In this document: in pieces, positions 51,157 to 53,892 of the stretch
Layout: every line of letters begins with the position of its first letter
Position numbering within the stretch: position 1 is the first letter of the stretch
DNA from: an uncultured Opitutia bacterium
GTDB lineage: Bacteria; Verrucomicrobiota; Verrucomicrobiia; Opitutales; Opitutaceae
Assembly: GCA_903896015.1 (NCBI GenBank)
Contig: CAITWF010000027.1
Span: 62,001-126,000 of the forward strand
DNA length: 64,000 bases
Reading direction: 5' to 3'
Program-made: the position numbers and the translations under genes
The notes under the pieces: generated by a model
What the model saw: only the letters and a program-made list of their open reading frames with translations
Database searches by the model: none
Told to the model about the DNA's origin: nothing

Positions 51157-51226
51157 GTAGGGCGCCAGTCTTGCTAACGCCGTTATCCGAACCCTCCCGG
51201 AGCGACGTAAGCAAGGCTAACCCTAA
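51157..51226. repeat. REP-like element, two inverted copies
   Basis: GTAGGGCGCCAGTCTTGCTA then ACGCCGTTAT (51157-51186) is a degenerate copy of the REP-like unit seen at 55465, 60351 and 62966. A second copy in opposite orientation lies at 51201-51226 (AGCGACGTAAGCAAGGCTAA then CCCTAA). The pair can form a long hairpin between the esterase remnant and the helicase stop, and the last bases overlap the stop. Confidence 0.65.
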
Positions 51227-53892
51227 GCAGAACCGATCGGCCGCACCTCGACCAGCCGCACGACCGCTCGATCCTCGGCGCGGGACGCCGTGAGCGACAC
51301 GACAAAGATTGCTTCCCAATCGTTCGCGTCCTCGGTGTCGATGAGCACCTGAGCGACTTCGATCTCGTCGGGGCCGGCCAAGCCTTCGCCCGTCTTTTCC
51401 GCGAAATGCGTGTGCTTCGCGGCACGCCCCTCCGGATCGAGAAGGAAGCGATCGCGCTCGGCGAAATACGGTTCGAACATCCGGTAGCTCGTTTCCTTTT
51501 CCTTCTCAGCCTCGTCCTGCGACGGCGGTGCAGAACGCCCACCGGCCGCGCTCCAGCGCGCCGCGCCTTGCAGCAGCAGATAAATCTCAGCGCGCACGAG
51601 CCGGTGAAACGATGGCGCGTCGCGCGTCACGTCGTAGCTCGCCGGCCGCGCGGGCTTCCCCGCGCCGCCCGCGTCCACCGCGATCCACTCGGGGTCCTTC
51701 ATCTTCTCCCATTCTTCGATGAGGCTGGCGTCCACCCCGCGAATGAGTTCGCGGAAATACGCCTCCATCTCTGCGACCTCTTCGGTTTTCGCGCTGTCGG
51801 GCACGGTTTGCGCGAGCACTTTCCACACTTGGGAGAGATGACGCAGCAGCAGACCTTCGACGCGCTCGAGGCCATAGTCCTTGATGTAATCGCTGAAACT
51901 CAGATAGCGCTCGAACATCTCCCGCGCGATCGATTTCGGCCTCACGTTCTCGGCCTCGACCCACGGGTGCGCCGCGGCAAACGCGTTGAAGGTCTCGTAT
52001 AAAAATTCCCGCAACGGCTTCGGGTGTGCCACTTCCTCAAGTTTCGCGATGCGCTCCTCGTATTCGACGCCGGCCGCCTTCATCTCCGCCATCTTCTCCG
52101 TCTTCGCTCGGTTCACCTGCGCCCGTAGAATCTGCTCCGGGTCCTCGACGATTGCCTCGCAGAGCGTTAGCACCTCAAAAGGATAGTCCGGCGACTCGCG
52201 GTTCAGCTTCGGCAGCGTGTCCAACAGGTAGAGCGACAGCGCCTGATGCAGCGAGAAGTCCTCCTGCAGTTCGATATTCACGCGGAGCTTTCGTCCTCCG
52301 AGGTGGGGCCGGCTCTCAGAGCCGGCCTGAGTTCCAGCGTGATTCGCATCCTTAGCGGGATTCGCCCCCGGCAACTCAGGCCGTTTCGGAGAAACGGCCC
52401 CAACCTTCGGAATAATTTCCACAATTCCCCGCTCCACCAGCGCGCGAAACAACTGCCACGCGCGCTTCCGCAGCGCGACTTTCCGCATCGCCGGTTCGTG
52501 GCTCTCGCGAATCAACCGCTGCATCGCGCGGCATCCGTCCTCTTTCTGTCGCCCGAGCAGGAGCAACATCATGCCGTGCGACACCGCGAAGCGGGAAACG
52601 AGATTTTCCGGCGGCGCCGTCTGCAGTCGCTCGAAAGTTTTGATGTCCCAGCCCACCGCGCCCTCGGGCGCGCGCGCCTTCACGAGTTTCCGCAGCTTCT
52701 GCGGATTGTCCTTCAACTTCTCCTCGTTGCGCTTGTTCTCGATCACGTGCTCCGGCGCTTGCGCGATCACGTAGCCCTTGTCGTCGAAACCTTTTCGCCC
52801 CGCGCGCCCCGAGATTTGCCGAAAATCGCGCACGGCGAGGATGGCCGCCTTCTTGCCGTCGTATTTCCAGAGCTGAGTGAAGAGCACCGTGCGGATCGGG
52901 ACGTTGATGCCCACGCCGAGCGTGTCGGTGCCGCAGATCAGCTTGAGCAGGCCCTTTTGCGCAAGCTGCTCGACGAGGATTTTGTATTTCGGCAGAAGGC
53001 CCGCGTGGTGCACGCCGATGCCGTGACGCAGCCAGCGTTTCACATCCTTCCCGTGCGGGCTGTTGAATTTCACCTTCTCTAACTCCGCCGCGATCGCCGC
53101 CTTCTCCTCGCGCGTGCACACGTCGAGACTCATCAACGCCTGCGCCGCCTCAGCCACGTCGCGCTGCGTGAAATGCACGAGATACACCGGCGCGTGCCCA
53201 TCCGTGAGCGCCTGCGCCGCGCGTTCGGCGAGCGGCGTCTCGGAATATTCAAACGCAAGTGGCACCGGCCGCGTCTCACTCCGCACCGTCACGGCCCGCG
53301 CGCCCGTCACCCGCTTCAGTTCACGCTCGAAGAACTCCGTCGGTCCGAGCGTGGCCGACATCAGCAGGAAACGCGCGCCCGGCAGCGTGAGCAGTGGCAC
53401 CTGCCATGCCGTGCCACGATCGGCGTCCGAGTAGTAGTGAAACTCGTCCATGATTACCGCCTTGACTGCGGCCGCGCGCGGGCCGCCGCCGAGCGCGATG
53501 TTCGACAAAATTTCCGCCGTGCAGCAGAGCACGGGCGCGTCGAGGTTCACGCTCGCGTCGCCCGTCATCATACCGACGTTCTCCGGCCCGAAGTCGCGGC
53601 ACAGGGCGAAAAACTTTTCGTTCACGAGCGCCTTGATCGGGCAGGTGTAGACCGAACGTTCTCCCGCGCACAGCGCCTTGAAATGCAGCGCCGACGCGAC
53701 GAGCGATTTCCCGGACCCCGTCGGCGTCGCGAGGATCACGTTCTTCCCGTCGAACAATTCGAGGATCGCCTCCTCCTGCTCCGGATAAAGCGCGAGCCCC
53801 TTCGCCGCCGCGACAGCAACGAATTTGTCCAGCACCGCATCGACCGTCGGCCTCCCAGCCAACGGAGCAAGCGGAGCAGAGTGCGGCGTCAT
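51223..53892 (-). CDS. Ski2-like DEAD/DEAH-box helicase with DUF3516
   Basis: An 889-residue superfamily 2 helicase. Motif I is [11 protein letters not shown], motif II is [10 protein letters not shown] (DEFH), motif III is LLMSATL, and motif VI is [15 protein letters not shown], with [13 protein letters not shown] as in Ski2/Mtr4/Brr2 enzymes. From about residue 530 the C-terminal part matches the DUF3516-type region of bacterial relatives. Residues of about 497-530 are encoded by a roughly 100-bp palindromic element without breaking the frame. Its role is probably in RNA processing or decay, but no specific substrate is known. It is divergent from the GH28 gene. Confidence 0.9.
52303..52402. 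repeat. complex palindromic element inside the helicase gene, in frame
   Basis: Two perfect hairpins flank a core. The first has arms GGCCGGCTCT (52307-52316) and AGAGCCGGCC (52318-52327). The second has arms GGCCGTTTC (52379-52387) and GAAACGGCC (52391-52399), loop GGA. CCTGAGTT (52326-52333) pairs with AACTCAGG (52373-52380), enclosing two 12-base direct repeats with one mismatch: AGCGTGATTCGC (52336-52347) and AGCGGGATTCGC (54354 minus 2000, that is 52354-52365). The whole is translated as about 33 residues with no stop. Confidence 0.85.

Follow-up and report, generated by a model that had tools for sequence, protein, structure and literature searches.

A GTAG-class REPIN read in frame in a Ski2-like helicase gene, and the repeated filling of one helicase loop by REP sequences

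How does a strongly palindromic stretch of DNA come to lie within the open reading frame of a bacterial helicase gene, and what would it mean for the protein and for the repeat itself? The question is raised by a gene on the reverse strand of the window (the whole stretch of DNA analyzed here, 64,000 nucleotides in length), in which a preliminary description made from the sequence alone had proposed a palindromic, perhaps mobile insertion translated as part of a Ski2-like helicase. The proposal is supported: copies are dispersed, the frame stays open through the element and most orthologues lack it. The element is very probably a non-autonomous REPIN of the GTAG class that inserted into the helicase gene, left its frame open and has been tolerated in a disordered loop of the protein. 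The features, in window coordinates, are the following.

51223 to 53892, reverse strand: gene for a Ski2/Mtr4-like helicase with DUF3516, 889 amino acids (open reading frame; Pfam DEAD, Helicase_C and DUF3516; fold)
52302 to 52404, no strand assigned: REPIN of 103 bp, two GTAG-class REP monomers in opposite orientations (hairpins, shuffles, model R1, fold)
52302 to 52338, forward strand: REP monomer 1, with foot GTGG, stem-loop and tail TGAGTTCCAGC (59.2 bits against R1, a member by construction)
52368 to 52404, reverse strand: REP monomer 2, with GTTG in place of GTRG at the foot, stem-loop and tail TGAGTT (54.6 bits against R1, likewise by construction)
52307 to 52327, no strand assigned: perfect 10-bp hairpin of monomer 1 (arms 52307-52316 and 52318-52327)
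52379 to 52399, no strand assigned: perfect 9-bp hairpin of monomer 2 (arms 52379-52387 and 52391-52399)
52326 to 52380, no strand assigned: outer pairing of tail with tail, CCTGAGTT with AACTCAGG (52326-52333 with 52373-52380), which unites both hairpins in one long fold
52339 to 52367, no strand assigned: spacer between the monomers; the imperfect direct repeats at 52336-52347 and 52354-52365 lie partly within it

The element consists of a 37-nt repeat present twice in inverted orientation, both copies having stems of 9-10 bp, TCTCNGA as loop region and TGAGTT as tail, and at 103 bp it is slightly longer than the span first given to it (52303-52402). It makes up helicase codons 497-531, with base 52404 opening codon 497 on the coding strand, and the frame runs through it with no stops; the preliminary description had the open frame right but ended the added residues at 530. 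Both perfect hairpins and the outer pairing are exactly as it had claimed, while its two 12-base direct repeats are present but identical at only 11 of 12 positions. Loops of 1-3 nt on stems of 9-10 bp agree with the class, for which stems of 5-13 bp and a small loop are expected. Two or more stems of at least 9 bp appeared in none of 2000 dinucleotide shuffles of the element, which rules out a chance palindrome, and the predicted RNA fold (-61.2 kcal/mol, z -6.07) was equaled by none of 200 shuffles. Within the 64-kb window a strict detector found no further hairpin of this kind, and the next best matches to R1 there are weak, with E-values of 0.41 and 7.3.

When the genome from which the window comes (G000, an incomplete draft of 4.96 Mb in 123 contigs) was searched at the DNA level, scattered copies were recovered, many of them as inverted pairs, so the other genomic copies on which the proposal depended do exist. 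Twelve monomers from G000 and two from G031, a relative in another genus, went into the covariance model R1; the scores of the two window monomers express membership by construction, since both were among these 14. At E ≤ 1 R1 matches at least 31 monomers in G000 and at least 48 in G031, and at least 29 of 57 relatives have one match or more. From the 79 matches 72 were used (seven were left out), and these cluster into 42 elements, of which G000 has 18 and G031 has 24, and 29 of the 42 contain two or more matches. The stems of the family covary: in 12 cells both partners of a pair had changed, a number reached in none of 500 shuffles, and the covariation score and percentage paired also exceeded all 500, although two cruder measures of the five did not (160 and 193 of the 500 shuffles were as good). 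Most members carry an unpaired foot GTAG or GTGG, as expected of the class, and they form inverted dimers with a spacer that are dispersed through the genome, as expected of REPINs. Many of the REPINs in G031 (among them L142, L143, L144, L147, L150, L151 and L152) share the 12-nt flanks tgacttYtccga ... aatagtccaa, and several are found at the ends of contigs, which would fit a REPIN carried in a larger repeat.

Foot, stem-loop, inverted pairing and a neighboring REP-associated tyrosine transposase (RAYT) are given as the marks of GTAG REPs and REPINs in the sections available of three earlier papers (PMC3733652, PMC3116915, PMC8266576), and REPs flanking a RAYT are found in relatives of the window's genome. 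The candidate is an open reading frame of G031 (P0001), a clipped query that scores 79.5 bits against NCBIfam REP_Tyr_transpos (NF047646; cut-off 80) and 17 bits against Pfam Y1_Tnp, under the cut-off of 23. REPs of the R1 family start 8 nt past its stop codon, and R1 matches (E ≤ 1e-4) adjoin P0001 or its relatives in five of 30 loci (L381, L382, L383, L393 and L394, in G031, G030, G011, G026 and G025), while a strict GTRG hairpin lies within 600 nt of a P0001-type gene in 24 of the 30 and on both sides in 19. It may be by such a RAYT that the REPIN was moved. In the draft of G000 no relative of P0001 was found at E ≤ 1e-10, so the REPINs of this genome look like a population without a mobilizer, unless the gene is absent from the draft. 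A second RAYT does occur in G000 (L031 on contig C60, open reading frame at about 1324-1956; 85.6 bits against NF047646 and the sole Y1_Tnp match in that genome), with neighboring hairpins, read by eye, that are CGTCAG-CAAGA-CTGACG-like and belong to another REP family; it was rejected as the mobilizer on account of this difference in type. Comparison of filled with empty sites by eye, among relatives that have diverged, revealed no target site duplication of the sort that accompanies the terminal inverted repeats of an IS-derived MITE. A GTGG-footed REP family tied to a candidate RAYT makes testable the guide-base rule that the available part of one account describes for other REPtrons, one of which is reported to be cut at CC under the guidance of GTGG (PMC8266576).

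The host gene is identified by its DEAD, Helicase_C and DUF3516 domains and by a Ski2/Mtr4-like fold, with matches to Mtr4, Ski2 and Hel308. The preliminary description was right as to the Ski2-like host, but its placement of the element between the helicase core and the DUF3516-type region is only roughly right, because the Pfam DUF3516 match falls in two stretches, the best of which is residues 529-883. In an AlphaFold model (28 sequences, mean pLDDT 73.9, with parts of the C-terminal half also of low confidence) residues 497-533 have pLDDT below 50 and no secondary structure and lie between two short strands, so the insertion site is better described as lying beyond the helicase core in a predicted disordered loop flanked by these strands. 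The eukaryotic Mtr4 and Ski2 proteins have an arch insertion; in a comparison with it sequence similarity stops near residue 380 and structural alignments give range ends only. A second recurrent site of strict REPs in the same helicase, near residue 800 and about 780-915 nt past the linker, is seen in the orthologues L185, L205, L209, L253, L307, L311 and L361.

The helicase is present in 186 of the 252 genomes of the family, and its 234 loci gave 232 linkers (L047 and L309 gave none), 169 of them unique when taken with 30-nt flanks. The linker is 2 residues long in 85 of the 169 and 5 residues in 30, and the REPIN segment is absent from most of them, so the conservation among orthologues against which the preliminary description had set its proposal is not seen. 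Strict REP hairpins, with a GTRG foot and a stem score of at least 7, nevertheless stand in the linkers of 10 of 168 unique helicases (L055, with a negative linker length, was excluded from densities), and the 15 hits in 10.9 kb of linker, compared with 45 in the remaining 418 kb of gene, amount to a density about 13 times as high (binomial p = 2e-11, ignoring common ancestry). Among linkers of at least 12 residues 10 of 35 contain a strict REP, where 60 rounds of shuffled linkers gave a mean of 0.17 and a maximum of 1. Mapped on a FastTree tree of the helicase (168 tips including L055; L357 was excluded as too short), the trait takes 10 changes for its 10 tips, or 17 changes for 21 tips when degenerate linkers labeled by eye are counted. 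The flanks of the named helicase loci held 56 hits in 393 kb, with 5 in 19 kb outside open reading frames of 120 codons, too crude a proxy for judging whether the linker exceeds intergenic DNA.

Nine linkers were compared with their own genomes, and among the matches listed further copies were found for eight, those of G249, G176, G114, G004, G174, G158, G105 and G107. The hairpin in the linker of G011 (L037) passes the strict detector but had only two genome matches among those listed, one of them itself, and was not accepted as a dispersed repeat. Counting G000 and G031, dispersed palindromes occupy the loop in 10 genomes of seven genera (g1, g31, g19, g63, g7, g4 and g61), three of which (G158, G105 and G107) have linkers that fail the strict detector. 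By our own grouping on foot, loop and identity there are about six types of palindrome; the monomers of G000 and G004 are 80% alike, in a comparison of eight monomers that ranged from 38 to 100%. The presence of other REPs of the same kind at the same spot in relatives marks the site as tolerant of insertion. The linkers of L304 and L188/L294 contain tandem copies of SGERQQADPSGLPR, up to 93 residues in all, in the same helicase loop; this unit is probably an expanded one derived from a palindrome.

Might the segment instead be a native, conserved linker of the helicase, palindromic by chance and never mobile? Such a linker would explain why G031 carries this element at an identical position and with similar residues, but the dispersed genomic copies already contradict this reading and are the ground on which it was rejected; the association with a RAYT and the absence from most orthologues also oppose it, and we regard it as scarcely credible. 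The insertion of the REPIN probably took place in the common ancestor of G000 and G031. Between the two genomes the insert is 81-83% identical (12-codon windows) and the neighboring gene 82-83% (40-codon windows), so that insert and gene are about equally diverged and the insert is old in these lineages; sliding identity has no peak at the insert, for which reason a local exchange of the linker by recombination between the two genomes was rejected. This agreement in divergence, and the unusual arm GGCCGTTTC and related spacer common to both, argue against two independent insertions of the family into a common hot spot, a history that we consider rather unlikely although two further genomes speak for it. 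The linker of G001, a member of the window's genus, is 14 residues long and lacks the element, so that a common origin with G031 would need a loss in G001 or two gains. In G249, which belongs to a third genus and is nested on the tree among relatives with linkers of 5-7 residues, the site holds a pair of this REP family of its own, most simply a separate gain.

Since the frame is intact, translation of the REPIN would yield a peptide of about 35 residues, and these would be borne at little cost to the helicase because the frame stayed open and the loop is disordered in the model; the insert may be neutral or nearly neutral, and the repeated uptake of REPs by the loop would follow from the survival of insertions there under selection. 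The insert could on the contrary be useful and not merely tolerated, either through an mRNA hairpin that serves as an interdomain translational pause or as a flexible spacer, with REPs being recruited repeatedly. The excess of REPs in the linker, the roughly ten separate changes on the tree and the strong RNA fold all favor such a role, as does the identity of 36 of 36 stem bases between G000 and G031, stems that stayed unchanged while the spacer, the least conserved part of the REPIN, drifted, which could mean selection on the hairpin. Yet the same spacer differs at 7 of 10 residues, without codon-level constraint; 25 of the 35 long linkers have no strict REP, so plain lengthening occurs too; the hits share ancestry and are not independent; and survival bias predicts the same pattern, insertions in the domains being removed. 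Purifying selection on the insert peptide was rejected at a dN/dS of about 0.40, compared with 0.10 and 0.15 in the flanks, figures from one pair and 34 codons that are not decisive. We hold usefulness of the insert to be very improbable, and find it quite improbable that the loop is a repeated landing site of different REP types because a hairpin or spacer is useful there (for example as an mRNA pause or as a source of sequence for an added arm), with selfish repeats a regular source of protein segments in the family. Selfish REPINs tolerated in a disordered loop remain the best reading.

How far is this a new kind of element? In the preliminary description a structured, mobile DNA that makes peptide would be a notable find in this lineage; the element is structured and dispersed, but not of a new kind, for GTAG-class REP dimers in the lineage were reported in 2013 (PMC3733652). 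The available sections of that paper (Di Nocera et al. 2013) already describe GTAG REP dimers within genes, with the largest numbers in Opitutus terrae, 'RNA helicases' among their hosts and, in the GTAG-20 family of O. terrae, mostly GTGG feet. The helicase REPIN shares with these dimers the foot, the short stem-loop, the inverted dimer of about 100 bp and the in-frame genic location, as well as the bacterial family and RNA helicase hosts, a likeness drawn from their description. With the REPINs of Pseudomonas fluorescens SBW25 (Bertels and Rainey 2011, PMC3116915) it shares the inverted REP pair with a spacer, the one long hairpin and the link to a RAYT; those are described, in the part of the account available, in extragenic space, whereas the helicase REPIN lies in what reads as an open coding frame. 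The Rickettsia palindromic elements are likewise palindromic repeats in frame in protein genes, but of another lineage, and the likeness is drawn from the portions available of their descriptions (PMC3733652, PMC10969869); RPE-4 and RPE-6 are there said to correspond to CGTC repeats (PMC3733652).

The point of interest is recurrence at one site. The available text of the 2013 paper notes one gene pair with REPs at about the same site, the recB genes of Xanthomonas (PMC3733652), whereas here one linker was filled in many lineages, and we did not find repeated filling of one helicase loop by different REP types in the literature searched, supplementary tables aside. Within one protein family, occupied and vacant sites together make a well-sampled natural series of how selfish palindromes turn into protein, one that bears on whether insertion is random and filtered by tolerance or is steered or rewarded.

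REPs also stand in frame in other genes of these genomes. G000 and G031 have in common a second in-frame REPIN, between the DUF5939 and cyclase domains of a DUF5939-cyclase of which two of eight orthologues contain a REP. An HrpA with DUF3418 in G031 (L154, C36:4533-4617) has an in-frame REP with Pfam domains on either side, and the HrpA of G024 (L427), in a different genus, has a single REP in the same interdomain linker. HrpA is matched in 37 of 57 genomes, but strict REPs occur in this linker in only two of the 30 loci examined, although it is long in many genomes without one, and it was rejected as a site comparable to the helicase loop. With the helicase counted, in-frame elements supported by Pfam number 3 of 18 in G000 and 3 of 24 in G031, few open reading frames having been scanned for domains and the remaining elements judged from the open reading frames alone. 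Of 174 frames of REP dimers 112 contain no stop, which gives an insertion a fair chance of leaving a gene open. In a TIR_2 protein of G000 (L175, C26:77376-77452) an in-frame REP pair follows the TIR domain, and it lies directly before a hydrophobic stretch that resembles a membrane segment.
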